A stretch of DNA of 55,884 bases. Source: Pseudomonadota bacterium (lineage in GTDB: Bacteria; Pseudomonadota; Gammaproteobacteria; Xanthomonadales; Rhodanobacteraceae). The stretch is from the NCBI GenBank assembly GCA_021793195.1, contig JAJYTG010000004.1, positions 1-55,884 of the forward strand. The letters run 5' to 3'. A program made the position numbers and the translations under genes. Under the pieces are notes generated by a model. That model searched no databases, was not told where the DNA came from, and saw only the letters and a program-made list of their open reading frames with translations. Below, one piece after another: positions 3,096 through 47,881 of this stretch. The first letter of the stretch is position 1, and every line of letters starts with the position of its first letter.

Positions 3096-3099
3096 AATT

Positions 3100-11158: not shown

Positions 11159-11192
11159 GCCGCCGTCGGACCCCGACGCCCCGCCCCGCCCC

Positions 11193-12083: not shown

Positions 12084-12153
12084 GGATGTGTCTGCTAACT
12101 TTTCAGGCCGCACTTCGATGGCACGGAGCCGAAGCAACAGGGGGAAGGGCTGG

Positions 12154-13554: not shown

Positions 13555-13639
13555 TGCGTCCCCTGAGTTCCGCTGCTGTCCGGCGGCTGCCGCGCATAGC
13601 GGCGGACGGTCCCTCCCTGCATCCTGCCAAGGGTCGATC

Positions 13640-14263: not shown

Positions 14264-14265
14264 CG

Positions 14266-27839: not shown

Positions 27840-29110
27840 GCGCTGCGCAACAACACTTTGACGATGACATAGAGCACCGCGATGCTGGCCATCGCGATGG
27901 GCGGCCAGCGCCACCAGCTGTCCGCGAGACTCACGCGCGGCAGATCATGAAAACGCTGCTGGCAGCCGACGTAGGTTCCGACCACCACCGCAGCGAGGAG
28001 GTACACGAGGATGATATAGCTGCGGCTGAGGAAGAACGCGGCGGCAAACATGCCGCACAGGCACAGCAGCAGCGTGAACGCGATCGACTGTTCCTGGCGC
28101 CACGCCAGCACCCCGAGTTCGTCGTCCGCATCCAGGTCCGGCTGGTGGCGGAGGATATTGACCATCATCCAGAATCCGTAGCCGACGAAGGCCAGCCAAA
28201 GCGTGTAGCCCACAAAGCCTGTTTCCGCCAGCACCAGTACCAGCGAGTTGTGCGCGGTGAGGTAGTTGTAGTCGGTGAAGTTGCCCACGCCGACACCAAG
28301 CAGCGGGTGTGAGAGGAACATATGGATGCCTGCGTACCACGCGTCGATGCGGCCCGTCGCCGACTCGCCGCTGGCCTCCAGGTCCTGGAAGCGGGTCTTG
28401 ATCAGGCGCATGGCGAGGAAACCAACGCCACCAAACACCAGCGCGGTCAGCTTGCCCCGTTTCATCCATAGATAGACGCCGAAGATCACCGCGACGGCCA
28501 GCATGGTGCCACGCGAATTGGTCAGATAGATGCCATAGAGGATCAGCGCGGCGCATGTGAGCCAGAACAGCCGGCGCAACAGTCCGCCCCCCGCGCTGAG
28601 GTACACGGCCATCGGCAGAATCGAGACGAACAGCAGGCCCAGATCGTTGGGATCGTTGAAGATGCCGACGTAGCGGATGCGATGATCCTTGTCCAAGGGC
28701 ATGCCGGTCCAACCGACGCCATGCCGGATCTGGTCCACGCCGTGCAACGCGAGCACGGTGGTACAAAGCGCGAAGACCGCGAAAATCGTCCTGACGTGGC
28801 GCGGACTGCTCGACGCCGCGGCCGCCAGCACGAAGAAGGCGACGACCGCCGGCCCGAACTGGCGCAGTTGCTCGATCGATCCACCGAACCAGCCGGTGGC
28901 GACCTCGGAAGCCATCATGGCCAGCAGGAACAGCGGCAACAGCACGAACTGGGGGGCCGCGAAAGTCTTGGCCTTCGAGCCCAGCCAGCTGGCAAACGCC
29001 AGCACCTGCACGACGATCAGCAGTGGCACGTTCGCCAGCCCCGGCATGTAGTCCTGCGGCCGGATGATGGTGAGTACGATGTACAGCAGGATCATGAGGA
29101 ACATGGTCAT
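27836..29110 (-). CDS. O-antigen polymerase/ligase family protein of the EPS operon
   Basis: A 424-residue protein with about 12 membrane helices. Its start MTMFLMILLYIVLTIIRPQD is typical of the exosortase-associated O-antigen ligase-like family. The periplasmic loop contains HPLLGVGVGNFTDYNYLTAH, with the His and Asn expected in Wzy/WaaL-type proteins. The frame is open to 29278, but the ATG at 29110 overlaps the upstream deacetylase stop by 4 bases. It would polymerise repeats, or attach chains. With the wzy-like gene at 602-1843 the window has two such proteins. Confidence 0.85.
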   Translation of the reverse strand: MTMFLMILLYIVLTIIRPQDYMPGLANVPLLIVVQVLAFASWLGSKAKTFAAPQFVLLPLFLLAMMASEVATGWFGGSIEQLRQFGPAVVAFFVLAAAASSSPRHVRTIFAVFALCTTVLALHGVDQIRHGVGWTGMPLDKDHRIRYVGIFNDPNDLGLLFVSILPMAVYLSAGGGLLRRLFWLTCAALILYGIYLTNSRGTMLAVAVIFGVYLWMKRGKLTALVFGGVGFLAMRLIKTRFQDLEASGESATGRIDAWYAGIHMFLSHPLLGVGVGNFTDYNYLTAHNSLVLVLAETGFVGYTLWLAFVGYGFWMMVNILRHQPDLDADDELGVLAWRQEQSIAFTLLLCLCGMFAAAFFLSRSYIILVYLLAAVVVGTYVGCQQRFHDLPRVSLADSWWRWPPIAMASIAVLYVIVKVLLRSA

Positions 29111-30201
29111 GCCTGCCCGGTACGTTCCGGGCCGGTGGCCGTGGGGTAGGTCATCAGCCCCGGGAAGGCCAGCATGGCGGCGAACCAGCCGAGGCCCATC
29201 GCGCGCTCGACCGGAAGCCGCCGCAAGGTGTAGCGGTTGCCTGCGGGATCGCGGTTGACGCCGCAGATGTAGGTGCACGCCAGCGCATAACCCGCCGCGT
29301 TAGTCGCCGCGATGACGCGGCCATCGAACGCCCTGTCGCCGCCCACGGGATAGGCCATCAGGTCTGCCGGCCCGCCCAGCGCACGCTCGAGGACGGCCTT
29401 GGACTCGTTCAATTCATTCTCCAGGTCTGTCTGCGGGAGCTTGGACAGCATGCGGTGGTCGACACCGTGCGAGCCGATCTCGAAGCCGGCCGCGCGCATT
29501 TCCCGCAGTTGCGTCCAGCTCACTGGCTGGCAGTCGGGATGGCGCACTTCCCCGCGCGGCATCGCCCACGTGCGTTCGAGCCGCGCGATCAGCGCGGATT
29601 GTGCGCTGTCGTCCAGCGTCTTCACATGATCCAGCAGCCGCATGGCGAACACGTGACGCCCTTCCCTGGACGCGGGCAACAGCTCCCGCGCACCGAATTC
29701 CGGCAGGTCCACATCCGACGCAGAGGTGGTCAGCACCATGTGCACGAGCCAGTCGTAGGCAAACGGCCGGCCGCTGTCGACATGCCCGGTCGAGACGAAG
29801 AAGGTGGCAGGCACGCCCACCTCGCGCAGGATCGGATAGGCCAGACGGTAATTGTCGTCGTACCCGTCATCGAAGGTCACGGCCACCGCGTTCGGCGGCA
29901 GCGCCCGGCCCTCGCGAAAGGCTGCCGCCACCTCGCCCAGCGCCACCGGATGGAAGTGGCGTCTGAGCAGCCGCATCTGCTCGCGGAAGCAGTCCGGCGA
30001 TGCGCTCACCAGCTCGAGATCGAAGTCGAACCGCGATGGATCGGGTACGTCCAGGACACGGTGGTAGGCCAGGATGCGCAGGTCGTGTAGCAGCGGCCGG
30101 TACAGCCGCTGCAGTGGCCAGAGCACGCCCAGTGCGTAGGACAGCTCGCCCAAGCGCGAGCGGATGCCGGCGCCGGTCCCGGATTCGGCGGTGCGCGTCA
30201 C
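29107..30201 (-). CDS. Polysaccharide deacetylase, NodB family
   Basis: A 364-residue CE4-type protein, longer than the 213-residue one at 21973. It has motif 1 TFDDGYDDNYRLAY, motif 2 EIGSHGVDHRML with H-x3-H, and an N-terminal lead with ILAYHRVL, the usual start of this subfamily. All metal ligands are visible. The preferred start is the GTG at 30201, which overlaps the GT2 stop (GTGA); an in-frame GTG lies 3 bases further up. It would remove acetyl groups from the EPS or its precursors. The C-terminal third (TLRRLPVERAMG) is common in the exosortase-linked form. Confidence 0.86.
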   Translation of the reverse strand: MTRTAESGTGAGIRSRLGELSYALGVLWPLQRLYRPLLHDLRILAYHRVLDVPDPSRFDFDLELVSASPDCFREQMRLLRRHFHPVALGEVAAAFREGRALPPNAVAVTFDDGYDDNYRLAYPILREVGVPATFFVSTGHVDSGRPFAYDWLVHMVLTTSASDVDLPEFGARELLPASREGRHVFAMRLLDHVKTLDDSAQSALIARLERTWAMPRGEVRHPDCQPVSWTQLREMRAAGFEIGSHGVDHRMLSKLPQTDLENELNESKAVLERALGGPADLMAYPVGGDRAFDGRVIAATNAAGYALACTYICGVNRDPAGNRYTLRRLPVERAMGLGWFAAMLAFPGLMTYPTATGPERTGQA

Positions 30202-31328
30202 CACAAGTGCAGCCTCCGCCGGCCGATGAACGTCACCAGCGCCTGCGCCGCGAACAGGTTCATGTAGAAGAACGCCACGGTCAGGCGTATCGGCAGCCAG
30301 CGGCCGATGGTCGGCAGCAGCCGCCCCATCACGGTCATGGCGATGCTGGCAAGCAGCAGGGCCAGGCTTGCCGCGTAGATGAGGGCTTGGCCAGCAAGCA
30401 CCGTCGCGGACAGCGCCATCAGCAGCAACAGCCAAGGCGCCAGCAGCCGCAGCAGCTTGTGGCTGGCGAAGCGCAGCCACAGCGGGTTCCGCCAGGGCGC
30501 CAGCAGCCAGGGCGCCAGCTGGACCAGCTGGTAGTTGCCGGCGAGCGTGCGCACCTTGCGGCGGCGTTCCGCCGCGGGCTCCTGCGAAGGCCAATCCCAG
30601 GCCACCGCGGCGGGCTCGAACACCACGCGCCACCCCGCGCGCGCGACCTGCATGGGAATCAGCACGTCGTCGAGCACAGTGCCAGCCGGAATCGCCGTGA
30701 ACAGGCTGCGACGCATGATGTAGATGGCGCCGGTCACGCCGATCGTCGAGCCCGACCGGCTCTCGGCGTTGCGGATGAACTTCTCGTAACGCCAGTAGGC
30801 GTCCACGCTCTTGGCGAAACCCGTATCGGCATCGCGGAACTGCAGTTCACCGCCGGCCGCGCCCACCAACGGGTCCGCGAGGTTGGCCACCAGCGCGCGC
30901 AGCGCCGGCGGCTCGAACTGCTGGCGCACATCCGTCATCAGCAGCACGTCGCCGGTCGCCGCAGCCACCGCATCGTTCAGGCACGCAGCCTTGCCCCTGC
31001 GCGCGGCGAATTCCAGGACCTGCACGCGTGCGTCGCCGGCACCGCGCGCCACGTCGGCGGAGCCATCCGTGCAGCCGTCGCACGCAACGATGATCTGCAC
31101 CTGCGCGCGGGGGTAGTCGAGCAGGTCGAGGTTGGCCAGCTTCGCGGCGAGCTCCCCCGCGCCATTGCGGACCGCCATCACCACCGACACGCTCGGCGTC
31201 TGCACGCGCCGGTCGACGCGGCGCGGGCGCAAGCGGGCAAGCAGCCATACCAAGGCGGGATAACCCGCATAGGTATAGACAAGCAGCACCACACTGACCC
31301 AGAACAGCGCTTCCATCGCGACCATCAT
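30198..31328 (-). CDS. Glycosyltransferase family 2, membrane-bound
   Basis: A 376-residue inner-membrane GT-A enzyme. One helix lies at the N-terminus (LFWVSVVLLVYTYAGYPALV), a catalytic domain follows (SVSVVMAVRNGAGELAAKL, ACDGCTDGSADVA, LMTDVRQQF, GTVLDDVLI), and three or so helices sit at the C-terminus. Family 2 enzymes of this shape often make processive or lipid-linked chains. I use the ATG at 31328 because GGGGGAG stands 6 bases before it; ATGs at 31334 and 31325 are alternatives. It follows the megasynthase gene by 25 bases, so it is likely in the same transcript. Confidence 0.87.
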   Translation of the reverse strand: MMVAMEALFWVSVVLLVYTYAGYPALVWLLARLRPRRVDRRVQTPSVSVVMAVRNGAGELAAKLANLDLLDYPRAQVQIIVACDGCTDGSADVARGAGDARVQVLEFAARRGKAACLNDAVAAATGDVLLMTDVRQQFEPPALRALVANLADPLVGAAGGELQFRDADTGFAKSVDAYWRYEKFIRNAESRSGSTIGVTGAIYIMRRSLFTAIPAGTVLDDVLIPMQVARAGWRVVFEPAAVAWDWPSQEPAAERRRKVRTLAGNYQLVQLAPWLLAPWRNPLWLRFASHKLLRLLAPWLLLLMALSATVLAGQALIYAASLALLLASIAMTVMGRLLPTIGRWLPIRLTVAFFYMNLFAAQALVTFIGRRRLHLW

Positions 31329-31353
31329 CGGCATCTCCCCCGGTGGTCCATGA

Positions 31354-34300
31354 TCAATGCCTCTCGAGCATGCGTCGCAACCGGCCCAGGATCGACGCGG
31401 AGCGGGGCGCGGCGCCAGGCGCCTGCGGCAGGAGGGCGGCCAGCGTGGACAGCGTGCCGGTGGCGACCTCGAGCAGGTTCAGCTTGACACCCGTTTCGCG
31501 TTGCACCCGCGCACCGAACTTGACCGCCAGCAGCGAGTGTCCGCCGATGTCGAAGAAATTGTCGATGCCACGCACGTCGGCCACGCCAATCAGCTCACGC
31601 CAGATCGCCGCGAGATAGGCCTCGCGGCGATCTTCCGGCGCAGCAGGCGCCGCCGCAGGCTGCGTGATTGCCACCTCACTCCGGCCTGCCCGCCCGCGCT
31701 CGACCGGGGCCACCGCGGGCATGGGCAGCGCCGCACGGTCGATCTTGCCGTTGGGCGTCTGCGGCAGGACGTCGAGCCACTCGATGTGCTGCGGCAGCAT
31801 GTAGGCGGGCAGGCGCGCGCGCAGGTGCTCACGCAGCGCGCGCGCGAGCGTCTCGCCCGCGCCATCGGCGACGGCATACAGCACGAGACGCAGGTCATTG
31901 TCACCCAACTTCCGCGCGACGACGACGCACTCGCGTATGCCTTCCAGTCGAGTCGCAGCGGCCTCGATGTCGCCGGGTTCGATGCGAAAGCCGCGGATCT
32001 TGATCTGGTGGTCGGCGCGGCCATGGAAATACAGCACGCCATCACGCCACGCACCCAGGTCGCCGGTGCGGTACATGCGCCCGCCGCCCGAATGGAACGG
32101 CTCGGGCACGAAGCGCTGCGCGGTCAGCTCCGGCTCGCCGAGGTAGCCGTCCGCCACGCCGTCACCGGCGATGACGATCTCGCCGATCACCCCCGGCGGT
32201 ACGGGCTGGCCGCGCCCGTCCAGCACATAGATGCGGGTGTTGGCGATCGGCCTGCCCAGCGGGACCGCCGTCAACCCAGGTGACAGCCGCGCGAGCGTCG
32301 ACCAGATGGTCGTCTCGGTCGGGCCGTAGAGATTCCACAATCCCTGGCAGCGCCCCGCAAGGTCGTTTGCCAGTTCGAGCGGCAGCGCCTCGCCGCCGAC
32401 TAGCAGGCGCAGGCGCGTCAGGGCGACATCGCGCCCGGTTTCCAGCAGCAACCGCAACAGCGAAGGCGTGGTCTGCAGCACTGTGCAGCCACTGCGCTCG
32501 ACGAGATCGGCGATCTGTTGCGGATCACGCCGCTCGTCCTCGGTGGCGATGACCACGCGTCCGCCGCAAACCAATGGCAGGTAGAGCTCGAGCCCGGCGA
32601 TATCGAACGACAACGTGGTGACCGCGCACAGCGCGTCATCGGCGCCAAAACCGGGATCCCGCTGCATCGACTGCAGGAAATTGACCAGGTTACGATGCAG
32701 GATGCGCACGCCCTTCGGCTGTCCGGTCGAGCCGGAGGTGAACAGCACGTAGGCAAGGTCATCGCCGCACACCCGGGGCAAGGGCATGTCCGAAATCTCA
32801 GCCGCCAGCGCTTGCACCTGCAGCAGCCCGCGCCCGGCCGCAACAGGCTCCGGAACCAGCCCGGGCTGTGTCACCAGCACGTGCGCCACGTCTGCCTTTG
32901 CCGCCATGTAGCGCAGACGCTCGACCGGGAAATCCGGGTCCATGGGGAGATAGGCCGCGCCGCTGCGTAGTACACCCAGCACCGCGACGAGCATGTCCAT
33001 TCCGCGCGGCATGCAGATCCCGACGATGGCGCCGTGACCGATGCCACGGGCCGCCAGAGCTCGGGCAACGGCATGCGTGGAGCGATCCAGTTCTGCATAT
33101 GCGAGACGCTCGCCTTGGCACTCAGCGGCGACCTGGCGCGGAGCACGCCGCGCCTGAAGATCGAACAGTGCCGTGACGCCCTGGCTGCGGTCGAATTCGT
33201 GACGGGTGGCATTCCATTCTTCGAGGAGCTCCCCGCGTTGCCCTGCGTCCAGCAGAGGCAGATCGCCGATCCGCTCCGTGGTCGTAACCGCGGCCTGACC
33301 CAGCAGCGTCCGCAAATGAGATGCCCAGCGCCGCACGGTATCGCCGGTAAACAGGCGGGTGTTGTAGTGCAATAGCAGGTCGAGGCGACCTTCACGCTCG
33401 GTGAAATGGAAAGCAAGATCCCAATTCGTATGGGTCTTGGGCATGTCGCGATGACGGTGCTCCAGGCCCGTGTAGGCAGCAGCCCTCGACGATGTCGGGT
33501 TGAGGTTGAAGAAGACATCAGCCAGCGGGAGGCGGCTCATGTCACGCGGCACCTTCCGCGCGCCGATGATGCGCCCGATCGAGACGTGCTGATGTTCGCT
33601 CGCATCGAGCAGGCCCGCCCGGACCCGCTGCAGCAGCGTCTCAAACGTATCGTCCAGATCGATGTGCATGCGCAGCGGCAGGGTGTTGTCGCTATCCCCG
33701 ACGCTATGCCGGTCGTCGCTCACCGCCTGTCCGGCGAAAGGCACGCCACACACCAGGTCGTCCTGTCCGGTGAGGCGGTGCAACAACAGGTAGAACCCGG
33801 TCAGCAGAAATGCGAAGAGCGTGGCATGCCGCGCACGCGCGGCGGCGCCCAGCGCACGGACCAGCGCCGCATCGAACGACAGCTCCACGCTGTCGCCATC
33901 GAAGCTGACGACGTTGTCGCGCGGGAGATCCGTCGGTAGCCGCAGCGCCTCGGGCAGGTTGCGATAGCCTGCCAGCCACCACGCCAGCGACGCCTTGCCC
34001 TCCGCGCCATCCCGCCGCCGCCTTTCCAGCAATGCGAAACGGCGCCAGGAGCCGGCCTGGGGAAGCTGCGGCACCTTCCCCGCGCGGATCGCGCTGTAGC
34101 TGATCGCCAGCTCGTCGCTGAATACGCGCCAGCTCCAGCCATCCATGATGATGTGGTGCGCGATCACGAGAAACATTGTGCGCTGGCGCGAAAGCGTCAC
34201 CAGAAAGGCGCGCATCAGCGGCGGCCTGGCGAGATCGAACGCCTGCCCTGCCTGCGCGCGCGCATAGTCCTGGAACGCCGTCTCGGCGTCGGGTTTGCCT

Positions 34301-37300
34301 GATAGGTCGTGCTGCTCCAGCCTGATCAGGCTGGGCGGCTCCCAGATCTGACCGCTGCCATCCTCCGCAAACCTCATAGCCAGCGCGTCATGCCGCTGTA
34401 CGACTGACTCGAAGGCACGCCCAAAGGCGTCCGCATCCAGCGCACCATCAAACTCGATGCACATCGATTCGTTGAATGCGGTGGCGATCGTGTCGTTGTA
34501 GTGCGCACCCAGCCAGCGCTCCATCTGAGCGTCGGTCAACGGCACCTTGGCCGGCAGATCCCCACCGGAACACATCCCGTCAGGCCCGGGCGGCGGGTTA
34601 TCGGTCTTCGCCCGGGGCATCAGCACACCCGCCGCGAGCAGCTCGTCCACCGCCACGCTGACTGCGGCGACTATCTGCGCTACCTCGGCCTCGCCATGTG
34701 CGACGGAGAGAAAACAGTTGAACTGCTCGAACAGGTGCAGGCCGGCATGGCGCAGGCGGTACCAGAGCAGGCTGGCGCAGGGCTGGTCCTCGTCCACGCG
34801 CAGCTTCCACAGCGAGCTGTAGCCCACCGCGGTCACCGGCGCTCGGCGTTCGGCGAACAGCGCATTGAGCCGCGCGACCATCGCCTGGGTGCGCGCGTTG
34901 AGGCTCGTCTGCAACTGCGGCCCCTGCGCGCTGATCCATTGCAGCGCGGCCAAGGCCGCGGCCAGCGCCAGCGGATGGCGCACGAAGGTGCCGGCGAAAT
35001 AAGTGACGCCGGCCTCGGGGCAGCTGTCGTCACCGAACTGCCAGTAGCCGCCATCGAGCGCATCCATCCAGCGCGCGCTGCCGGCGATGGCGGCGAACGG
35101 CAACCCGCCGCCGATGATTTTGCCGTAGGTGGCGATATCGGCGCGGACCCCGTAATACTCCTGCGCGCCACCCGGGGCCATGCGGAATCCGGTGATCACC
35201 TCGTCGAAGATCAGGGCACAGCCGCCGACGGTGCAGATTTCCCGCAACGCCTTCACAAAAGCCGTCGGCAACAGCGTCGGGTGGCGGCTCTGCACCGGCT
35301 CGACCAGCACGGCAGCCAGCTCGTGCGTGCGCTCGCGGATGATGCGCAATGAATCCTCGCTGCCGTAGTCCAGCACGAGGACGTTTTCCACCGCATTCGC
35401 GAGAATGCCGGGCGCCGCCGCGATGGATCTCAGCATGCGGGTGCCGCGCACGATCACTTCATCGAAGATGCCGTGGTAGGAATCGCGGAACACCACGATG
35501 GTCTTGCGCCCGGTGACGGTGCGGGCGACGCGCATCGCCCCCATCACCGCCTCGGATCCGGTATTGCAGAACGCCACGCGCTGCATGCCGGTCATGTCGC
35601 TGATCTGCTGGGCCACCTCGGCGGTCAGCGGATGCTGCGGCCCGATTTCCATGCCTGTGTCGATCTGCGCATGCAGCGCGGCGGTGATGAACGCCGGCTG
35701 GTAGCCGAGGAAATTCACCCCGAAGCCGTTCAGCAGGTCGATGTATTCGTTGCCATCGATGTCCCAGAGGCGCGCTCCACTCGATCGCGCCACCGTGATC
35801 GGATAGGTCAGTTCCTTCCACAGCGGGTTGAAACCGGTCACCACGCGCGGGTCGGCCATGATCGCGCGGTGTTGCTGGGCGAAGGTCTTCGAACGCGCCG
35901 TGCGCTGGCAGTACGCCTCGGTAAACGTAGCCAGCCAGCGCCGCTGCGTCGCCGAGAGCTCGCCGCGGCGCTCGGTGGTGATGCGCGCGGACGCGCCGAA
36001 TGGGCGCTCCTTCAGATTGGCCGGGGCGACCTCGTCGCCAGCGGGTTCGGCTGCCACCGGTGCCGTGCCCGGGACAGGCATGGCGGGCATCGCGACCGCC
36101 GGCTGGCCGGCCAGGCTCGCCAGCAGCGCGCTCTGCTGCTGCAACAGCGCCATCTGGCCCTGGATGAGCCGGGCCAGCGCGTTCGGCGCGATCGCACCCG
36201 GCGCCAGAGCGGTGGCGGGCTGAGCCGGGATATCGGCTGCCGCCGGAGCTACCTCTTCCGGCGGCAGGGTGACGTCGAGCATCGCCGTCAAGCGCTGGAT
36301 GCTGTCCGCATCCTCCATCAGGCGGCGGAACTTGAGCTTCAGTCCATATCGCTGCTCGACGGCCAGCGCCGCCTGGGTCAGCGCCAGCGAGTCGAAGCCG
36401 AGATCGAGAAAGCTGTCGCTATCATGCCGGGCCTCCAGCAACTCGCCGCAGAGGTTGCCGAACAGTTCGCGCAGCTCGGCGGCCAGTCGTGCCGAGCGAG
36501 GCGCGGCCGTGATCGGGGAAGGCATTGCTGACGGCAGCCTCGCAAGTTCCTCTGCGTACGTCGATGGCGCGGACAAGATTGCCTCCACCGAGGTCATGTC
36601 CCTGGTGTCGGCCACCTCGGCGGCCGGCTCCACCCAGTAGCGCTTGCCCTGGAAAGGATAGCCGGGCAGCGCAACACGCCGGCAGGAAGCGCCGGCGTGA
36701 AATGCAACCCAGTCCGGCACCATGCCCGCGCACCAGCATTCGCCAAGCACCCGCAGCAGCTGCTCCTGCGCGTCGCCGGCGCGGGCGGCCGGTCCCAGAC
36801 TGGGCACGGCCAGCCCCTGTCCGTCGAGCATGCCGCGCACCAGGCCGGTGAGCACTTGCGATGGACCAGCCTCCAACAGCAGCGTGCGCCCCTGCCCCAG
36901 AGCGTGGCGCACGGCGTCGGCGAAACGCACCGGTGCGCGCAACTGGCGGCACCAGTAGTCAACCGTGGTGGCTTCCTCCGCCGTGATCGGCAGGCCGCCG
37001 ACGCAGGAATAGAAGCGCTGCTGCGGCGGGTGCAGGGTGACACCCTCGAACGCGCGCCGGAACAGCGGCAACGCGCCGTCCATCAGATGGCTGTGGAAGG
37101 CGTGGCTGACGCGCAAGCGGGTGCAGGCGATGTCCTCGAGGGCTAGAGTGGTGGCGAGCGCATCGATCGCTTCGTCGGTGCCGCTGAGCACGGTCTGCGC
37201 AGGCGCGTTGTACCCGGCGATCTCCACGCCTTCCGGCAAGCGAGTGGCAAGCGCATCGGCGTTCATACGCACCACCAGCATGGCGCCGGGTGGTTGCGCG

Positions 37301-39261
37301 GCCATCGCCGCACCGCGCGCGACCACCAGCGCCACGGCATCCTCCAGCGAAAACACGCCGGCCCGGCAGGCCGCCACGTACTCGCCGATGCTGTGGCCGA
37401 TCATCGCTGCCGGGTGCAGGCCCCACGCCGACCACAACCCGGCCAGCGCGTACTCGACCGCGAACAGTGCCGGCTGCGTGTAGCGCGTCTCGGCCAGCCG
37501 CCGCGTGGCCGCATCCTCGCCGCCAGGCATCGGCAGGATCAGCGCACGCAAGTCCTCGCCCAGCGCCGCGCTGGCCAACACGCAGCAGCGCTCGAAGGTG
37601 TCGCGGAACACCGGCTCGTGCTCGACCAACTCGCGCGCCATGCCCACATGCTGCGAGCCCTGCCCGGGGAACAGCATCACCAGCGCAGGCGGCTCCGTCG
37701 GCGCGCTGTGGGCGGCGAGGTGGACCAGGCGCTCGCGAGCCTGGGTCACGTCGCCAGCGACCACGAAACCACGCACCGGCATCGGCTGCCGGCCCAGCGC
37801 CAGCGTATAGGCCACATCCGGCAGCGCCGGCGCGTCGGCGCGAGCCAGCGCGTTAGCCAATCCGTCCGCCCGGCATTGCAGTGCAGCCCCGTTACGTGCC
37901 GAGAGCGGCAGCAGACTCAGGCGTCGACCCAGCCCGCGTGCCGGCGCCGCAGGCGCTTCCTCGAGAATCACGTGCGCATTGGTGCCACCCACGCCGAACG
38001 AGCTCACGCCAGCCCGCCGCGGACGCTCCTGCCGGGGCCAGTCGACAAGGTGGTCGACCACCTTGAAGGTGCTGTGCGCGAAATCGATCTCCGGGTTGGC
38101 AGCGCGGTAATGCAGTGTCGGCGGGATCCGCCCGTGGTGCAGCGACAAGGCCGCCTTGATCAGCCCGGCGACCCCGCTGGCCGCATTGAGGTGGCCCAGA
38201 TTGCCCTTCGCCGAACCCAGCCAGCAGCTTTGCCTCGCGGCGGCGCCCTGTTGGTAGACGCGGTCCAGCGCGGCGACTTCGATCGGGTCGCCCAGGGGCG
38301 TGCCGGTTCCATGCGCCTCGACATAACCGATCGACGCGGCTTCCACGTCGGCGCTGGACAGCGCCATGGCGATGGCCTCAGCCTGGCCGCGAACACTCGG
38401 CGCCGTGAAACTGGCCTTGTCGCCACCATCGTTGTTGACGCCGACACCGCGGATCACCGCATAGATGGTGTCACCGTCGGCGATCGCATCCTCCACGCGC
38501 TTCAGCACGACCGCCGCGCCACCCGAGGAGAACACGGTGCCGCTGGCGTCGCGGTCGAAGGGTCGGCAATGCCCGTCCTCCGACTCCATGCCGCCCTCGG
38601 CTGGCAGATAGCCGGACTCCTGCGGCACGACAATGTTGATGCCGCCGGCCAGCGCCAGATCGCACTGCCAGCTCATCAGCGCATACCATGCCTGGGCGAC
38701 GGCCACGAGCGAGGTCGAACAGGCCGTGTGGATGCTGAGCGCAGGCCCGGTCAGATCGAGACGATGGGCCACCCGCGTGGCGACGTAGTCCTTTTCGTTG
38801 GCGAGCATGGTGGCGAATTCGCCTGAGGACGCCACGAGACCGGCATGCGATTCGACCAGCCTGCGATAGCCATTGTTGGACGTCCCCGCATACACACCGA
38901 TGCTTCCGGTGAATCGGCCAGGGTCGACGCCGGCATCTTCCAGCGCGTTCCAGCACAACTCGAGGAACACGCGCTGCTGCGGATCCATCAGGAGCGCTTC
39001 GCGCGGCGGAATGCCGAAGAACGCCGCATCGAAGCGGTCGGCGTGGGCAATTACCCCGCGCGCAGGCACGTAGCGGGGATGCCTGCGCAGCGCATCCGGC
39101 ACCAGCGGCGAGAGCTGTTCGTGCGTGAAGCGCGTGATGGTCTCGCGCCCGGCCAGCAGGTTGGCCCAGAGCGCATCGACCGACTCCGCGCCGGGAAAGC
39201 GGCCGGACATACCGACGATGGCAACGCCTGTGACTGCAGCGCCGGCGGATGGCGAGCTCAT
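31354..39261 (-). CDS. Hybrid PKS-NRPS megasynthase, KS-AT-ACP-AMT-C-A-PCP
   Basis: A 2635-residue multidomain synthase. Ketosynthase about 10-435: Cys181 in HTACSTSL, then EAHGTGTPLGDP and KGNLGHLNAASG. Acyltransferase about 525-835: Ser624 in GHSIGEY, and HAFH at 720-723 suggests malonyl-CoA. Carrier protein about 925-998, Ser958. Class III PLP aminotransferase about 1130-1545, Lys1381 in ATYGKIIGGG. Condensation about 1570-1995, HHIIMDG at 1702-1708. Adenylation about 2030-2515, and a carrier about 2545-2615, Ser2576. The pocket read by eye is D2220-I-L...L-G-L-I-W-K, close to the glycine code DILQLGLIWK. All catalytic residues are present. There is no thioesterase, reductase or epimerase. 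KS-AT-ACP-AMT-C-A-PCP is the order of the beta-amino modules of iturin/mycosubtilin synthases, without their acyl-ligase start. It overlaps the stand-alone A-PCP gene by 4 bases. Confidence 0.93.
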   Translation of the reverse strand: MSSPSAGAAVTGVAIVGMSGRFPGAESVDALWANLLAGRETITRFTHEQLSPLVPDALRRHPRYVPARGVIAHADRFDAAFFGIPPREALLMDPQQRVFLELCWNALEDAGVDPGRFTGSIGVYAGTSNNGYRRLVESHAGLVASSGEFATMLANEKDYVATRVAHRLDLTGPALSIHTACSTSLVAVAQAWYALMSWQCDLALAGGINIVVPQESGYLPAEGGMESEDGHCRPFDRDASGTVFSSGGAAVVLKRVEDAIADGDTIYAVIRGVGVNNDGGDKASFTAPSVRGQAEAIAMALSSADVEAASIGYVEAHGTGTPLGDPIEVAALDRVYQQGAAARQSCWLGSAKGNLGHLNAASGVAGLIKAALSLHHGRIPPTLHYRAANPEIDFAHSTFKVVDHLVDWPRQERPRRAGVSSFGVGGTNAHVILEEAPAAPARGLGRRLSLLPLSARNGAALQCRADGLANALARADAPALPDVAYTLALGRQPMPVRGFVVAGDVTQARERLVHLAAHSAPTEPPALVMLFPGQGSQHVGMARELVEHEPVFRDTFERCCVLASAALGEDLRALILPMPGGEDAATRRLAETRYTQPALFAVEYALAGLWSAWGLHPAAMIGHSIGEYVAACRAGVFSLEDAVALVVARGAAMAAQPPGAMLVVRMNADALATRLPEGVEIAGYNAPAQTVLSGTDEAIDALATTLALEDIACTRLRVSHAFHSHLMDGALPLFRRAFEGVTLHPPQQRFYSCVGGLPITAEEATTVDYWCRQLRAPVRFADAVRHALGQGRTLLLEAGPSQVLTGLVRGMLDGQGLAVPSLGPAARAGDAQEQLLRVLGECWCAGMVPDWVAFHAGASCRRVALPGYPFQGKRYWVEPAAEVADTRDMTSVEAILSAPSTYAEELARLPSAMPSPITAAPRSARLAAELRELFGNLCGELLEARHDSDSFLDLGFDSLALTQAALAVEQRYGLKLKFRRLMEDADSIQRLTAMLDVTLPPEEVAPAAADIPAQPATALAPGAIAPNALARLIQGQMALLQQQSALLASLAGQPAVAMPAMPVPGTAPVAAEPAGDEVAPANLKERPFGASARITTERRGELSATQRRWLATFTEAYCQRTARSKTFAQQHRAIMADPRVVTGFNPLWKELTYPITVARSSGARLWDIDGNEYIDLLNGFGVNFLGYQPAFITAALHAQIDTGMEIGPQHPLTAEVAQQISDMTGMQRVAFCNTGSEAVMGAMRVARTVTGRKTIVVFRDSYHGIFDEVIVRGTRMLRSIAAAPGILANAVENVLVLDYGSEDSLRIIRERTHELAAVLVEPVQSRHPTLLPTAFVKALREICTVGGCALIFDEVITGFRMAPGGAQEYYGVRADIATYGKIIGGGLPFAAIAGSARWMDALDGGYWQFGDDSCPEAGVTYFAGTFVRHPLALAAALAALQWISAQGPQLQTSLNARTQAMVARLNALFAERRAPVTAVGYSSLWKLRVDEDQPCASLLWYRLRHAGLHLFEQFNCFLSVAHGEAEVAQIVAAVSVAVDELLAAGVLMPRAKTDNPPPGPDGMCSGGDLPAKVPLTDAQMERWLGAHYNDTIATAFNESMCIEFDGALDADAFGRAFESVVQRHDALAMRFAEDGSGQIWEPPSLIRLEQHDLSGKPDAETAFQDYARAQAGQAFDLARPPLMRAFLVTLSRQRTMFLVIAHHIIMDGWSWRVFSDELAISYSAIRAGKVPQLPQAGSWRRFALLERRRRDGAEGKASLAWWLAGYRNLPEALRLPTDLPRDNVVSFDGDSVELSFDAALVRALGAAARARHATLFAFLLTGFYLLLHRLTGQDDLVCGVPFAGQAVSDDRHSVGDSDNTLPLRMHIDLDDTFETLLQRVRAGLLDASEHQHVSIGRIIGARKVPRDMSRLPLADVFFNLNPTSSRAAAYTGLEHRHRDMPKTHTNWDLAFHFTEREGRLDLLLHYNTRLFTGDTVRRWASHLRTLLGQAAVTTTERIGDLPLLDAGQRGELLEEWNATRHEFDRSQGVTALFDLQARRAPRQVAAECQGERLAYAELDRSTHAVARALAARGIGHGAIVGICMPRGMDMLVAVLGVLRSGAAYLPMDPDFPVERLRYMAAKADVAHVLVTQPGLVPEPVAAGRGLLQVQALAAEISDMPLPRVCGDDLAYVLFTSGSTGQPKGVRILHRNLVNFLQSMQRDPGFGADDALCAVTTLSFDIAGLELYLPLVCGGRVVIATEDERRDPQQIADLVERSGCTVLQTTPSLLRLLLETGRDVALTRLRLLVGGEALPLELANDLAGRCQGLWNLYGPTETTIWSTLARLSPGLTAVPLGRPIANTRIYVLDGRGQPVPPGVIGEIVIAGDGVADGYLGEPELTAQRFVPEPFHSGGGRMYRTGDLGAWRDGVLYFHGRADHQIKIRGFRIEPGDIEAAATRLEGIRECVVVARKLGDNDLRLVLYAVADGAGETLARALREHLRARLPAYMLPQHIEWLDVLPQTPNGKIDRAALPMPAVAPVERGRAGRSEVAITQPAAAPAAPEDRREAYLAAIWRELIGVADVRGIDNFFDIGGHSLLAVKFGARVQRETGVKLNLLEVATGTLSTLAALLPQAPGAAPRSASILGRLRRMLERH

Positions 39262-41120
39262 GACCCACCCTCGCGACGCGAAGCGAACCGGTTCAACGCA
39301 GCTCGCTGCCGACTGCCACGCGTCATGGCCTCGCCGTTGTTGCCAGGCTGCGGACCGGCAGGCGCAGCCAGGCTGGCGGCCAGCCTGGCGACGCTGGGAT
39401 GTTCATAGATCTGTGCCGCAGTCAGCATGCGGAAGCCACGCCGCCGCAATTCGGTCAGCGCACGCACCACGGTCAGTGAGCGCGCGCCCAGATCGAACAG
39501 GTTGGCCTGTGGATCGAGCTCGTCGAGCCCCAGGAGCTGTTGCCAGAGACGGACCAACTGCTGCGGCAGGGACTGCGCCTCATCCCAGGCCAATGGGGCG
39601 TCGACGGCCTGGGCCGCCAGTGCGCGCCGGTCGATCTTGCCGCTTGCCGTCAGGGGCAGCAGCGGCGCGAACGCGAAGGACTGCGGCATGAGGTAGGGCG
39701 CGAGCTCGGTCTGGCAATGCGCGCGCAAACTTGCAGCCATGGTGCCATCCCCTGCCCGGGGATCGCGCAGGACGACGTGTGCGACCAGTTTCCGGCTGGA
39801 ACCGTCGCCGACCGCCACGACCGCGACCTCGGCAACTGCCGGGTGACGGCCGAGCACTGCCTCGATCTCCGCAGGCTCGATGCGGTATCCGTCCAGTTTG
39901 ATCTGCGCGTCGAGCCGTCCCAGATAGTGAAGATCACCCTCCGCATCGGCGCGGACGAGATCCCCGGTCCGGTACCAGCGCGTGCCATCGAGTTCAACGA
40001 AGCGTTCGCGTGTCAGCTCGGGCCGGCGAACATAGCCGGCCGCGAGACAGTCACCACCCAGCAACAGCTCGCCCTCGCCAAGGCCGGTGACCGGCCGCAG
40101 GGCTTCGTCCGCCCGCACGGCGCGCACATGCGGTAGCGGCCGCCCGATCGGCGGCAGCTCCGGCCACGCCGCGGCGTCGCCGCCCAGCTCGTACGCCGTG
40201 ACTACGTGCGTTTCGGTGGGACCGTAGTGGTTGTGCAGCACGCTGTCCGGCAGGGCTCGGAACAGGGCGCGAATCGCCGGGGTAATGCGGAGCTGCTCAC
40301 CCGCCGTGACCACGTCACGCACTGTCGCAGGCGGCGTGGCACCTGCGGCGACGCCCTCGGCGAGCGCTTGCAGGGCCACGTAGGGCATGTACAGGCGCTC
40401 GATGCCCTCGCGTTCGATCAGCGCCAGCAAGGCATAGGGATCGCGACGCTCAGCCTCCGTCGACAAGACCAGCGTGCCACCGGTCGCGAATGTCGTAAGG
40501 ACTTCCTGGAACGAGACATCGAAGCTCAGGGGGGCGAACTGCAGCGTCCTGGCCTTCGCGCCGAGGCGTGGGTGCGAGCGCTGCCACGCGGTCAGTCTGG
40601 CCAGCACTTCGCTGCGCATGGCCACGCCCTTCGGCCGCCCACTCGATCCCGAGGTGAACAGGATATAGATCCACTCGGCCATCTCCGGCCGCGGCCGGGC
40701 ATCGTCGTGCTCTCCTCCCTGAACTGCCAACGCGAAGGGATCCAGGCACCTCAGGCTGGCGTCGACCTGCAGGCGCGCGGCTGCGTCCGGCGCGACAAGC
40801 AGCAGCGCCGGCTGCGCATCTTCCAGCATGGCGGCGATGCGTGCGGAAGGGTAGCTTCGGTCCAGCGGCACGCTCACTCCGCCGGCCAGAAGAACGGCAA
40901 GCAACAGGACGATCGCCTCCGGCCCGCGCTCGAGGACCATCGCCACGGCATCGTTGCGGCGCATGCCGTGGCGGGCAAGAGCGTCCGCGACAGCCTCGGC
41001 CTGATCGAACAGCTCAGCGTAGGATATCCGGCGTCCGCCGCCGACCAGCGCGGTCACCTGTGCGTGCACCCGGGCCTGTTCCCTCAGGTGGCGCGCCAGA
41101 TCCAGCGCGCAGGCTTCCAT
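39258..41120 (-). CDS. Stand-alone NRPS A-PCP protein, predicted to load proline
   Basis: A 620-residue protein: adenylation domain (residues about 15-500) and carrier domain (about 515-585, Ser548 in LGARSL). It has TSGSSGRPKG, NHYGPTETH, YRTGDLVRAD and SGKIDRRAL. By my eye alignment the specificity pocket is D201-V202-Q205-Y247-V271-A273-H298-V306-V307-K495, essentially the proline code (DVQ-IAHVVK type). It would form prolyl-S-PCP, which the ketosynthase could extend. The start at 41120 has CAGGGGAT 8 bases upstream; a longer TTG start would overlap the cupin gene by 16 bases. The carrier motif GARS replaces the usual GGHS, though the modified serine is there. Confidence 0.88.
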   Translation of the reverse strand: MEACALDLARHLREQARVHAQVTALVGGGRRISYAELFDQAEAVADALARHGMRRNDAVAMVLERGPEAIVLLLAVLLAGGVSVPLDRSYPSARIAAMLEDAQPALLLVAPDAAARLQVDASLRCLDPFALAVQGGEHDDARPRPEMAEWIYILFTSGSSGRPKGVAMRSEVLARLTAWQRSHPRLGAKARTLQFAPLSFDVSFQEVLTTFATGGTLVLSTEAERRDPYALLALIEREGIERLYMPYVALQALAEGVAAGATPPATVRDVVTAGEQLRITPAIRALFRALPDSVLHNHYGPTETHVVTAYELGGDAAAWPELPPIGRPLPHVRAVRADEALRPVTGLGEGELLLGGDCLAAGYVRRPELTRERFVELDGTRWYRTGDLVRADAEGDLHYLGRLDAQIKLDGYRIEPAEIEAVLGRHPAVAEVAVVAVGDGSSRKLVAHVVLRDPRAGDGTMAASLRAHCQTELAPYLMPQSFAFAPLLPLTASGKIDRRALAAQAVDAPLAWDEAQSLPQQLVRLWQQLLGLDELDPQANLFDLGARSLTVVRALTELRRRGFRMLTAAQIYEHPSVARLAASLAAPAGPQPGNNGEAMTRGSRQRAALNRFASRREGGS

Positions 41121-41149
41121 CGGCAGATCCCCTGCAGCGCCCTTCTGCG

Positions 41150-42097
41150 TCACCTTGCGCCCCAATGCGGCGTCTGGTTCACGCCGAAATGTTCGGCCAC
41201 GCCGAGAACCGGGCCGATCAAGTGCAGGTAGGTGGCCAGCAACGCGGCCTTGCCCGGATGGCCGAGTCGCCGCCTTTCGTCACGGACATCGCCGACAAAA
41301 GCCCCCCAGTTGTCGGAGCCGAGCTGGTCGAAGGCGATCGAGATCGTCATCCCAAGGCTGCGCGCCGTATGCCACCAGCCGCAGGGCAGGAACAGCGTCT
41401 CCCCCGCATGCACGACCACTTTCTGCGACTTCGCCTGGCGGAACAGCGGGTAGCGTCCGTAATCGGGGTGGTGGTGGTCCTCGATACTCGACTGCCACGG
41501 AATGTCCGGGTTGATGTACAGCAGATGCTCCTGGCCCGGGGTGTAGAGGGTGAACTCCTTGTCGCCATGCAACTGGGTGATCCATGCGTGCAGACGCATC
41601 ACGTCGTAGTGCAGATAGGGAAACTCTCCACCGGGACCACCGAAGAAGATCTCCAGATTATTGACATGACCGAACAGGCGTTGCGGCAGTAACGGGTTGC
41701 GCTGCCGGTCCGGCAAGCTGTGGGGTGGCCGTGGAGTCACTTCGGCAACCAGTTCGGGAAAATCCCTGGTGAGCTCGAACTTGCAGGGATAAGGTCCCGG
41801 CTGGTCGAGAGTCGAGGTCTGCAGCAAGTCGATCAAGGCCGCGAGCGTGTAGTCCTGCCCATGCACGCGCAGCTTGCGCTGCCCGTAGTGATCGCGGAAA
41901 TAGTCCGGCGAGCACTTGTTGTACAGCGGCCAGGTCGCGGCAGCATCGGTCAGGATCACCGGACGCCGCGGATTGCGATAACTGGCAATGAACTCCTCCA
42001 GGCGCAGTCCAGTGCGTCTTTCCAAGGTGAAGCCGGACCGACCTGGCATGCCAGCAGAAGGCCGTTGCTCAAGCGATTCCTGTTTATCCGTCGTCAT
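41150..42097 (-). CDS. Cupin-8/JmjC-like oxygenase, first of two
   Basis: A 315-residue protein of the JmjC-like cupin family (Cupin_8), whose members are Fe(II)/2-oxoglutarate dioxygenases. The metal triad is visible as HYD (about residues 168-170) in PYLHYDVMRLHAW and the late His of FLPCGWWHTARS. The substrate region NPRRPVILTDAAATWPLYN is typical. It is paralogous to the neighbour at 42167, with nearly identical core motifs (GDKEFTLYTPGQEHLLYI versus GDKEFTLFYPGQEHLLYV). Next to a proline-loading NRPS it may hydroxylate an amino acid, free or carrier-bound. An active site for sugar or protein substrates cannot be excluded. Confidence 0.8.
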   Translation of the reverse strand: MTTDKQESLEQRPSAGMPGRSGFTLERRTGLRLEEFIASYRNPRRPVILTDAAATWPLYNKCSPDYFRDHYGQRKLRVHGQDYTLAALIDLLQTSTLDQPGPYPCKFELTRDFPELVAEVTPRPPHSLPDRQRNPLLPQRLFGHVNNLEIFFGGPGGEFPYLHYDVMRLHAWITQLHGDKEFTLYTPGQEHLLYINPDIPWQSSIEDHHHPDYGRYPLFRQAKSQKVVVHAGETLFLPCGWWHTARSLGMTISIAFDQLGSDNWGAFVGDVRDERRRLGHPGKAALLATYLHLIGPVLGVAEHFGVNQTPHWGAR

Positions 42098-42166: not shown

Positions 42167-43090
42167 TCAGCGCGCGCCCCAATCCTTGCGCCGATTCGCG
42201 CCGAAATATTCCAGGACATCCATCGCCGGACCCAGCACCCACAGGTAGGCATCAATCAGCCGCGCCTTCATGAACTGGCCCTCGCGGCGCCGTAATGCGA
42301 CGACTTCCTGACGGAACTCGCGCCAATTGCTGGACTCGAGCTGGTCGAACAGGACGCTGATGCTGGCATTGAGGCTGCGCACCGCGTGCCAGGTTCCGCA
42401 GGGGATGAACAAAGCCTCACCCGCATGCACGATGACTTTCCTGCCTCGCGCCTGCCGGAACAGCGGGTAACGCCCGGGGTCCGGTTCATTCGTCGATTCC
42501 ATCGTCGATCGCCAAGGTCGTTGCGGATCCACATAGAGCAGGTGCTCTTGCCCCGGATAGAACAGGGTGAATTCCTTGTCGCCGTAGACCTGCGCGACCC
42601 AGCCGTGCATGCGCAAGAAGTCGTAGTGCGGAAACGGGAAATTGTTGCCTGCGCCGCCGAAGAAGATGTCGATGTGACTGATCGAGTTGAACAGCAGCGC
42701 GGGCACCAGCGGGTGCGTATGCCGGTTGGGCAGGCTGTAGCCGAAGCGCGGCGAAATATCCCGCATGAACTGCCGACAATCAGTGATGGCGCAGGGATAC
42801 GGTCCTGGCTGGTCTGCCGTCGCATTTCGCTGCAGCGTCAGCGCTTCGCCCAAGCGGTAGTCCTTGCCAGCGCACCGGATCGGCAGATCGGCGAATTCAC
42901 GACTGAAGTAATCCGGCGTGAAGCGCCCCAGGGCCGGCCAGTCCTGCAGGGCATCGGTCAGGATGACCGGTCGCCGCGGAATACGGAATCTGCGCACGAA
43001 CTCATCGACGCCAATCCCGCTTACGCGCTCAACTGGCGAGGCATCATGCGATGCTTCGTGGTCACCCATGAACACCATGTCATCTGCCAT
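42167..43090 (-). CDS. Cupin-8/JmjC-like oxygenase, second of two
   Basis: A 307-residue paralogue of the 41150 protein. Metal ligands are suggested by PFPHYDFLRMHGW (H-x-D) and by FIPCGTWHAVRS. The N-terminal core is IPRRPVILTDALQDWPALGR. I chose the ATG at 43090 because AGGGGG lies about 7 bases upstream; a GTG 21 bases further up is possible. It is the first gene of the long minus-strand operon, so its upstream region (43091-43483) must hold the promoter. Two similar oxygenases could act on different positions or substrates. Confidence 0.8.
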   Translation of the reverse strand: MADDMVFMGDHEASHDASPVERVSGIGVDEFVRRFRIPRRPVILTDALQDWPALGRFTPDYFSREFADLPIRCAGKDYRLGEALTLQRNATADQPGPYPCAITDCRQFMRDISPRFGYSLPNRHTHPLVPALLFNSISHIDIFFGGAGNNFPFPHYDFLRMHGWVAQVYGDKEFTLFYPGQEHLLYVDPQRPWRSTMESTNEPDPGRYPLFRQARGRKVIVHAGEALFIPCGTWHAVRSLNASISVLFDQLESSNWREFRQEVVALRRREGQFMKARLIDAYLWVLGPAMDVLEYFGANRRKDWGAR

Positions 43091-43483
43091 CTGCGCCCCC
43101 TCGCCGATCACGCCACGCCCGTGCGTCCAGCACGGCGCGTGGCCAGTGCCTGTTGCAGGCCGCCCGCAATTCCGGTGCCGTGTGCCCCTCGCGCTTTCCT
43201 GCAGCGCCGTATTGCACGGCCAAGCCCGGAAAATCCGCTTCTTCCATCATACGCCCAAGGCTGCGCCTGCGTCTGCACGCGTGCGGTCTTGGCTGCGTGC
43301 CGCCCGGGGCGCATGCCTCAGCCACGTCAGTGTCGACTCCGCATCCACCCGCGCTACCGGTGCAGCCTGTGGGCACGCACAAGAGCCCGTCCGCTGGTCG
43401 CGGCGTCCAACCCGCCCATCCGTCCTGCGGTGACGCGCGAAAAGTGCATAGAATCGCGTCCGGCAGATCCCGGGGAGGCCAAT
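43091..43483. other. Divergent intergenic region between oxygenase and sulfotransferase
   Basis: About 390 bases. Promoters for both the long minus-strand operon and the plus-strand sulfotransferase operon must lie here, but I see no clear -35/-10 pair or operator. It is G/C-rich, and the long open frames crossing it are shadows. Confidence 0.5.
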
Positions 43484-44446
43484 GTGGGCGCCGACGCTGC
43501 GCAATGTCCGATGCCGAACCTGTTCATCGTCGGCGCGCCGAAGTGCGGCACGACCTCGGTTTACGAGTATCTGCGCGGGCATCACGATATCTATTTTCCC
43601 CATGACGACAACGATTACGCACGCGTCAAGGAGCCTAATCACCTGTGCCCGGAGCTTGACATCGGCGCAAAGGATGCCATCCGCGATCGCGACGCCTATC
43701 TCGCGCTATACCGCGGCAGTGCGGGCGCGCGCTGGCGCGGTGATGCCTCGACGAACTACCTGTTTTCGGAAATCGCCGCGAACGCTATCCGACGCCTGAG
43801 TCCGCAGGCGCGCATCCTCATCATGCTGCGTCCGCCACCGGACTGGATGCGCTCGTATCACAGCGAATTGCTGCGCCATCGGCATGAAGACATTGCCGAT
43901 TTCCATGATGCGGTCGCAGCGAGCGAAGACCGCAGCCACGGACGTCGCATCCCGGCATCGACGGGGGTACCGCGCTGTCTCGACTATCTGGCGATGGCCC
44001 GGTTCACGCCCCAGGTTCAGCGCTACTACGACGTCTTCGGCCGCGACGCCGTCAAAGTCATCCTGCTCGAGGATCTGGCCACTTCACCGGCACGGACGTT
44101 CAGGCAAATACTCGAATTCCTCGACGTCGATACGGAGTATCGACCTCGGTTCAGCGTCCACAACGAAACCCCGCGGCATGGGCGGACCGAGCGGCTGCTG
44201 CGCGCGGGCTACCGGCATGCGAGCGTGCGGACCGCCATACAGCATGTCGTACCGAGCTCGGCGAGACGCCGAATTTTGGCGCTGGTCAGGCGCGCGGAAT
44301 CGCGTCACGCGTCGGAAGATCCGCGCGATCGACAATTGCGGCTGCAGTGCGCGGCCGATATCGGACAACTCTCGGCACTGATCGATCGTGACCTCGACCA
44401 TTGGCTGAACCCGCCCGCGCGGCAACGACCCAAGCAGCGCGACTGA
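43484..44446 (+). CDS. PAPS-dependent sulfotransferase
   Basis: A 320-residue Sulfotransfer_1-type enzyme. The 5'-phosphosulfate loop is GAPKCGTTSVYEYL (Lys20 to Thr24) and the 3'-phosphate part is RPPPDWMRSYHSELL. The start chosen is the GTG at 43484 because GGGGAGG lies 5 bases upstream; the ATG at 43511 would leave only PNLFIVG ahead of the loop and has no such site. The enzyme should add sulfate to a hydroxyl or amino group, probably of the EPS repeat. Sulfated bacterial EPS is uncommon outside marine and rhizobial groups, so this is notable. Confidence 0.88.
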   Translation: MGADAAQCPMPNLFIVGAPKCGTTSVYEYLRGHHDIYFPHDDNDYARVKEPNHLCPELDIGAKDAIRDRDAYLALYRGSAGARWRGDASTNYLFSEIAANAIRRLSPQARILIMLRPPPDWMRSYHSELLRHRHEDIADFHDAVAASEDRSHGRRIPASTGVPRCLDYLAMARFTPQVQRYYDVFGRDAVKVILLEDLATSPARTFRQILEFLDVDTEYRPRFSVHNETPRHGRTERLLRAGYRHASVRTAIQHVVPSSARRRILALVRRAESRHASEDPRDRQLRLQCAADIGQLSALIDRDLDHWLNPPARQRPKQRD

Positions 44447-45539: not shown

Positions 45540-45842
45540 GCTGGCACCGATCGTGCCTTGCAGCAGGGCGGATACGTCCGCAAGGGCGGGCCTGGGGTCT
45601 GGCCAAAGTTGCGTGCCCACACCGCGCGCCAGCCCTCGCGATCGCTGCCGCCACGCCGAGTGTCGGCCGTGGTGACGAGGGTGCCGGCATCAGGCGCACC
45701 TGCGCCGGCTCCTGCTCGATGCCGAACCGGTTGATCATTGCGCTACGCTTGGAGTTCTGCAACCTGTAAGGCTAGCGCGTCAAACCTGTGGCGCGTCAGG
45801 AACGAATTGGCAGGGCATTACGCGAGGGGTCTCTGCATCATC
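45540..45842. other. Intergenic region, no gene seen
   Basis: About 300 bases before the AsnB-type gene. It is G/C-rich at first and slightly A/T-richer near 45720-45790, where a promoter could sit, but no convincing -35/-10 pair or hairpin is visible. No gene is supported. Confidence 0.5.
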
Positions 45843-47807: not shown

Positions 47808-47881
47808 ACGCTACGGATAGCCATAGGAGCCGGCATAGAATGCCGGGCCACGCATCGTGCACCGAAGTCAGGGGAATCCGC

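Follow-up and report, generated by a model that had tools for sequence, protein, structure and literature searches.

The lines to which the mycosubtilin/iturin synthase MycA and the microcystin protein McyE belong have the domain order ketosynthase (KS)–acyltransferase (AT)–acyl carrier protein (ACP)–aminotransferase (AMT)–condensation (C)–adenylation (A)–peptidyl carrier protein (PCP). Here we describe a hybrid polyketide synthase–nonribosomal peptide synthetase (PKS–NRPS) with the same domain order and an AMT of the same family, encoded in a 55,884-nucleotide stretch of contig JAJYTG010000004.1 from a Rhodanobacteraceae bacterium (assembly GCA_021793195.1); this whole stretch is referred to below as the window. 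Unlike MycA and McyE, the window line has a separate A–PCP protein in front instead of fatty-acid loading, is predicted to add glycine after the beta-amino unit, lacks a thioesterase (TE) and sits among exopolysaccharide (EPS) genes. The flavipulchrin NRPS–PKS of Pseudoalteromonas extends with malonate, aminates C-3 by an aminotransferase domain and then adds glycine; it differs from the window line in its fatty-acid starter, its seven amino acids and its free cyclolipopeptide product (PMC12819058).

The surrounding genes recall XrtA/PEP-CTERM EPS loci, which contain EpsB_2, a chain-length determinant, a ligase, a pyridoxal phosphate (PLP) decarboxylase and hydrolases 1 and 2. The window shares with them EpsB_2, the chain-length determinant and a Cys/Arg pair of hydrolases, but no exosortase was found in its genome (73% complete), its hydrolases, ligase and amidotransferase score below the family cut-offs, and a PKS–NRPS is added. 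N-acyl amino acid synthases, reportedly linked to PEP-CTERM/exosortase loci by Craig et al. in 2011, place acyl plus amino acid chemistry beside this class of locus, but each is a single acyltransferase and not an assembly line. The sheaths of Sphaerotilus and Leptothrix are said to consist of 'thiopeptidoglycans', in which dipeptides are carried on an amino-sugar/uronate polysaccharide. They offer a precedent for a peptide-bearing polysaccharide in relatives of the Burkholderiales hosts of this line; the parts of the literature consulted name no gene for the peptide part. According to two further papers, floc formation by Aquincola requires epsB2 and prsT (PMC9850573), and Luteibacter mycovicinus carries a 'novel interleaved' PKS/NRPS cluster that may or may not be the present line (PMC11165876). 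No NRPS forming part of an XrtA/EPS system was found in the literature searched, whose coverage largely leaves out subscription journals, and the portions consulted of PMC11087309, PMC13386937, PMC8264430, PMC4897644, PMC9850573, PMC11165876, PMC12819058 and PMC8776678 tie no assembly line to such loci.

On balance, we lean towards the view that the window encodes a dedicated hybrid PKS–NRPS of an XrtA-type EPS locus without exosortase, which would make a short amino-acyl ornament for the polysaccharide.

A complete PKS–NRPS line and its predicted product

The synthase gene (31354–39261, minus strand) encodes a protein of 2635 residues. Pfam matches to ketoacyl-synt/C, Acyl_transf_1, PP-binding (two stretches), Aminotran_3, Condensation and AMP-binding were obtained in 31357–39261 (−); no TE domain was found in the protein. 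The stand-alone A–PCP protein, presumably the loading protein, is encoded immediately upstream (39258–41120, −). Its frame, with AMP-binding and PP-binding matches, extends over 39261–41165 (−) if read from a TTG at 41165, and an in-frame ATG puts the start at 41120. Both genes are complete and share bases 39258–39261. These data agree with the first-pass annotation, made from the letters alone, which had described a complete line plus a stand-alone A–PCP protein, a four-base overlap of the genes and intact active sites.

A motif search located TACSTS, EAHGTGT and NLGHLNAASG in the KS; GHSIGE and HAFH (which we take to indicate a malonyl-type AT) in the AT; LGFDSL in the ACP; SYHG, DEVITGFR and YGKIIGGG in the AMT; and HHIIMDG in the C domain, together with the A core motifs. 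The PCP motif is GGHSL in the synthase and GARSL in the A–PCP protein. Since every motif sought was present, and since the AMT lies in long open frames in most relatives, an artefact or a decaying synthase was ruled out. KS, AT, ACP, class-III AMT, C, A and PCP thus occur with intact motifs in a single polypeptide, and from domains and motifs we predict a type I modular PKS–NRPS with a beta-aminotransferase. The best matches of the AMT in the Protein Data Bank (PDB) were 6kfm and 6kfu, both mycosubtilin synthase A (408 bits).

Adenylation codes were read by motif and by alignment to the GrsA positions. The code of the synthase is DILQLGLIW. Its pocket region matched PDB entry 5u89 best, with the nine code positions identical in the alignment, and we take DILQLG-type codes to specify glycine. 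The A–PCP protein has the code DVQYVAHVV, and its pocket region matched 8p5o and 9bfd_B best, that is, gramicidin S synthase 2 and tyrocidine synthase 2, whose matched modules presumably activate proline. The A–PCP usually stands in front of the KS in these lines, and from this place we infer that it feeds the KS of the synthase. We accordingly predict a line that begins with a proline-like residue, extends it by malonate, aminates the beta position and ends with glycine.

Among 80 loci fetched, the starter code was of the DVQ type in 46 of the 67 with a detected starter A domain, and the second code was DILQ[LIF]G in 48 of the 71 with a detected second A domain. Divergent codes also occur, for example DALWLGGTF or DAFWIGGTF, which we assume to be valine-like, and DFWNIGMVH, which we assume to be threonine-like.

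Linkage of the synthase to EPS genes

Two proteins of the window score above the cut-offs that define XrtA-type EPS loci: the EpsB_2 priming glycosyltransferase (12088–13554, +; TIGR03013, 525.4 bits against 393.35) and the chain-length determinant (TIGR03007, 361.6 bits against 278.85). We compared 99 genomes of the order, including that of the window, and scored an AMT as close at an identity of at least 50%. A close AMT was present in 21 genomes and EpsB_2 above cut-off in 33, including all 21 (Fisher p = 2 × 10−13, a value that ignores kinship). The two genes lie on one contig within 25 kb in 16 of the 21 genomes and within 55 kb in two more (G073 and G089); the distance is 196 kb in G036, and in G013 and G038 the AMT is at a contig end. 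Homologues of 45–48% identity (G051, G090, G039, G026 and G047) were excluded from the 21. EpsB_2 was above cut-off on another contig in G026 and below threshold about 12 kb away in G090; G051, G039 and G047 had none above cut-off.

As a control, condensation domains were sought in 17 of the 21 genomes (G013, G038, G073 and G089 were omitted). Thirteen had none outside the synthase. The other four held 54 further matches: 34 on the EpsB_2 contig, at least 91 kb from EpsB_2 above cut-off (G023, G033 and G057), and 20 on other contigs (G021). Searches with the window proteins placed the synthase among EPS genes in all six regions of about 60 kb. The gene order from the synthase to a 399-residue protein is kept throughout in G055, is kept with one gene unrecognised in each of G049, G031 and G044, is partly kept in G017 (the GT2 and the third GT4 gene unrecognised, a gene like the second GT4 inverted) and is rearranged in G054. 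Co-occurrence, distances, the condensation control and gene order rule out a chance neighbourhood within the order. The first-pass annotation had named retention of the synthase next to EPS genes in relatives as the check on its proposal; the outcome favours that proposal within the order and is mixed in Burkholderiales.

The synthases at this place are not all alike. In a quick AMT tree of 81 rows, a supported group of 25 contains the window, Dyella and Rhodanobacter; Luteibacter (L097), Dokdonella immobilis and two Lysobacter species form a separate supported group outside it. L097 nevertheless matches the gene order of the window, with EpsB_2 upstream of the synthase and genes for a GT2, a deacetylase, Wzy and a GT4 downstream. 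G049, G031, G044 and G017, not included in the tree, resemble L097 in AMT identity (about 56%) and in the starter code DALW.GGTF; at the equivalent place the starter code is DVQ in the window and DSRFMGEV in G055. A fixed set of glycan genes combined with a variable synthase suggests a surface glycan whose structure is polymorphic.

The window genes form two facing series. The minus-strand series opens with two Cupin_8 oxygenases that keep the HxD...H pattern, at 42167–43111 and, JmjC-like, at 41150–42097; a homologue of the latter (69–71% identity) precedes the A–PCP gene in L027, L028, L029 and L031. The first-pass annotation had begun the series at the A–PCP gene, so its start has to be moved upstream; the genes that it listed downstream were recovered in the same direction. 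These are a GT2 glycosyltransferase (30198–31334), a polysaccharide deacetylase (29107–30210; frame open from 30633, the 5′ end placed by overlap with the GT2 gene), a Wzy_C/O-antigen-ligase-like protein (27836–29278, with a weak TIGR03097 match) and a flippase-like membrane protein (26395–27870). The last is identified by its hydrophobic sequence, has no Pfam or NCBIfam match and has a 52% homologue at the equivalent place in L034. Two GT4 genes, a second deacetylase gene, a third GT4 gene and the gene of the 399-residue protein, which has no Pfam match and was labelled PDA1 by place only, follow at 19614–26146 (−).

On the plus strand, TviB (above cut-off) and TviC-like UDP-HexNAc uronate genes (8640–11158) are followed by an Sfp/AcpT-type phosphopantetheinyl transferase (11073–11957), so the Sfp-type enzyme that had been assigned to the partner EPS operon is indeed there. 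EpsB_2 comes next. A Wza-like exporter, the chain-length determinant and an XrtA-type tyrosine-kinase-like protein together occupy 13544–16631; the last of these scores 176 bits with TIGR03018, which is below cut-off. Behind them come a barrel-like protein and two alpha/beta hydrolases. Further along, an asparagine-synthase-type amidotransferase and an acyl-CoA ligase (45738–49716, +) are related to the XrtA-associated families TIGR03108 and TIGR03098, below those cut-offs.

Other genes of the window may also concern polysaccharide. A large protein (52722–55412, −) has faint Heparinase_II/III-like and fn3 matches below cut-off. In G055, G049 and L034, homologues of 62–66% identity are found between the synthase and EpsB_2 or beyond, always towards EpsB_2; the protein is perhaps a lyase for the polysaccharide of its own locus. 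At 602–4545 (−), three genes judged by eye from their translations resemble those for a flippase, a GT4 and a membrane protein of the Wzy/ligase type, and may represent an additional set of polysaccharide genes next to the main one. A sulfotransferase domain (43500–44446, +) is oriented away from the Cupin_8 genes, and a 51% homologue adjoins the synthase of G036; the ornament or the glycan may therefore be sulfated. A 352-residue protein (51651–52706), guessed to be GNAT-like, was considered as the transferase and dropped, since it had no Pfam or NCBIfam match and no homologue in the loci searched with it.

The hydrolase pair, exosortases and distant homologues

Because the synthase has no TE, we propose that the two alpha/beta hydrolases release its product. 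Hydrolase 2 (17988–18767, +; TIGR03101, 80.7 bits against a cut-off of 202.75) has Arg at the nucleophile position, and hydrolase 1 (18764–19573, +; TIGR03100, 84.8 bits against 168.45) has Cys111, Asp134 and His244. Scoring below the cut-offs, they are relatives of the exosortase-associated hydrolases and not the same equivalogs. The loci compared reach up to 10 kb to either side of the AMT. One group of 32, made up of 30 loci labelled proteobacterial, one planctomycete and one deltaproteobacterial locus, has both genes in 20 cases; they were recognised in none of 48 others (42 Bacteroidota, 4 cyanobacteria, L059 and L082). In 19 of these 20 loci the pair follows on the 3′ side of the synthase, whereas L079 has it in front; in L039, the first hydrolase gene overlaps the end of the synthase. 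Including the window, the elbow Cys, the Asp and the His of hydrolase 1 are kept in 22 of 22 sequences, and the elbow residue of hydrolase 2 is Arg in 19 and Gly in three.

The models used detected neither hydrolase in the exosortase regions L125–L131, and canonical hydrolase 1 was therefore sought by family. It scored above cut-off in 19 of 120 Burkholderiales genomes, with an elbow Cys in all 19. The adjoining hydrolase 2 had Arg in all 17 cases with separate open reading frames (ORFs), and two single-frame fusions of hydrolase 2 and hydrolase 1 kept both elbows (L135:1495–3372, −; L138:517–2346, +). The Cys/Arg signature of the window is thus that of the canonical pair. Six canonical loci were retrieved at larger size, and the one of them searched by family, L154, encodes the XrtA ligase (753 bits), the PLP decarboxylase (606), hydrolase 2 (297) and hydrolase 1 (351).

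An AlphaFold2 model of hydrolase 1 (mean pLDDT 90.6) has an alpha/beta hydrolase fold, and a fold search returned this general fold only, with query TM-scores of about 0.5–0.64 among the matches listed. The model is compatible with hydrolysis and with transfer alike. In both kinds of locus, hydrolase 1 would be an acyltransferase or thioesterase for carrier-bound groups, with hydrolase 2 as a putative non-catalytic partner, and the pair may move the carrier-bound chain onto the polysaccharide.

A search for exosortases (PF09721) gave no match in the genome of the window, which is 73% complete, and across the 21 synthase genomes no match exceeded 36 bits. The sole strong exosortase of the 99 genomes, with 213.9 bits, belongs to G045, which has no close AMT, and is about 9 kb away from EpsB_2; the other matches above cut-off scored 26–41 bits. 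We therefore speak of an XrtA-type locus without exosortase and not of an XrtA system proper. Exosortases and EpsB_2 were also sought in 34 named synthase genomes, representing 28 of the 32 loci (L030, L047 and L049 on short contigs and the planctomycete L046 were omitted) and six of the 42 Bacteroidota loci. Strong exosortases occurred in 10 of the 28 (Burkholderiales and kin), so their absence characterises the order to which the window belongs and does not go with the synthase as such. The 28 comprise 27 proteobacterial genomes and one deltaproteobacterial genome; EpsB_2 scored above cut-off in 26 of them, L069 and L084 being the exceptions, and in none of the six Bacteroidota genomes. In Burkholderiales, glycosyltransferase/deacetylase genes flank the synthase copies L032, L038 and L041.

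Proposed pathway, alternatives and implications

The pathway that we propose would begin with arming of the carriers by the Sfp-type enzyme. The starter loaded by the A–PCP protein would be a proline-like amino acid, on which the two Cupin_8 oxygenases may have placed a hydroxyl group. With malonate added by KS–AT–ACP and the beta-keto group converted to a beta-amino group by the AMT, the resulting unit would be of the 3-amino-3-(pyrrolidin-2-yl)propanoyl type, and C–A–PCP would extend it with glycine. The Cys enzyme hydrolase 1, aided by its altered partner hydrolase 2, could then take the chain from the last PCP and pass it on; the simplest acceptor would be an amino sugar exposed by one of the deacetylases of the locus. 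This would come before polymerisation and export by the Wzy/flippase/Wza machinery.

The product might instead be a free secreted small molecule (a signal, chelator or antibiotic), with hydrolase 1 an ordinary trans-acting thioesterase and the EPS genes nothing but recruited neighbours. The first-pass annotation had allowed for either a decoration or a recruited small molecule; the EPS neighbourhood is conserved, and the decoration itself we infer. Several findings count against the ornament. The flavipulchrins show that malonate extension and C-3 amination followed by glycine can end in free cyclolipopeptides (PMC12819058). The sole Bacteroidota synthase scanned, from a Mucilaginibacter metagenome-assembled genome (L060), ends in a TE domain; a line of this type can therefore make a free product, and L060 is likely a free-product version. 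(This TE-ending synthase, at L060:11503–15642, is followed by an Sfp-type gene.) Seven Aquabacterium-type copies (L035, L036, L039, L040, L042, L043 and L054) keep the hydrolase pair, but searches of their flanks (one side only for L035) recognised no EPS gene; with window proteins as the probes, more divergent EPS genes could have escaped notice, and the genomes hold EpsB_2 on other contigs. In G036, an A–PCP–TE gene adjoins the synthase, 196 kb from EpsB_2. The hydrolase pair was not recognised in 12 of the 32 loci, three of them on short contigs, and in the window it belongs to the operon that faces the synthase. The 12 other genomes of the same genus yielded no close AMT; one of these, G003 (77% complete), has EPS genes at 63–82% identity, on a contig (region L133) that ends before the synthase region. 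All the same, we regard a free molecule as rather unlikely. The place between priming transferase and GT2/deacetylase/Wzy is kept with different synthases, 13 of 17 genomes showed no condensation domain outside the synthase, and no resistance or siderophore-receptor gene was found among the window proteins scanned, which were part of its ORFs.

A third reading, in which the product is a cap, or a lipid or protein anchor, attaching the polymer to the surface of the cell in place of the exosortase/PEP-CTERM partner, and not an ornament of the repeat unit, fits the lack of exosortase matches above 36 bits in the 21 synthase genomes and the occurrence of the strong exosortase of G045 near EpsB_2 without a close AMT. 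We consider it improbable, since the strong exosortases in 10 of the 28 named genomes mean that synthase and exosortase are not exclusive elsewhere.

Cupin_8 genes also accompany Aquabacterium-type copies: one stays with the synthase in L039, and where an Aquabacterium copy stands away from EPS genes, its hydrolases are followed by a Cupin_8 gene and by a gene for a TIGR04325 methyltransferase (L108:1018–1893 and 3112–3909).

Returning to the polysaccharide ornament, we tentatively extend it to a possible general scheme: in Rhodanobacteraceae and their relatives, exchangeable PKS–NRPS lines might diversify EPS, with a carrier-bound beta,gamma-diamino-acyl-glycine coupled to the glycan by a two-protein Cys transferase formed by the exosortase-associated hydrolases 1 and 2. 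If this is true, the same hydrolase pair would serve the substituents made by ligase and decarboxylase in canonical XrtA loci, giving the pair, long without an assigned role, one function in both, and the two hydrolase families would have a testable function. Genome miners who list such lines as orphan clusters would be seeking the product in the wrong fraction, and nonribosomal and polyketide chemistry would supply building blocks of glycans besides free metabolites.

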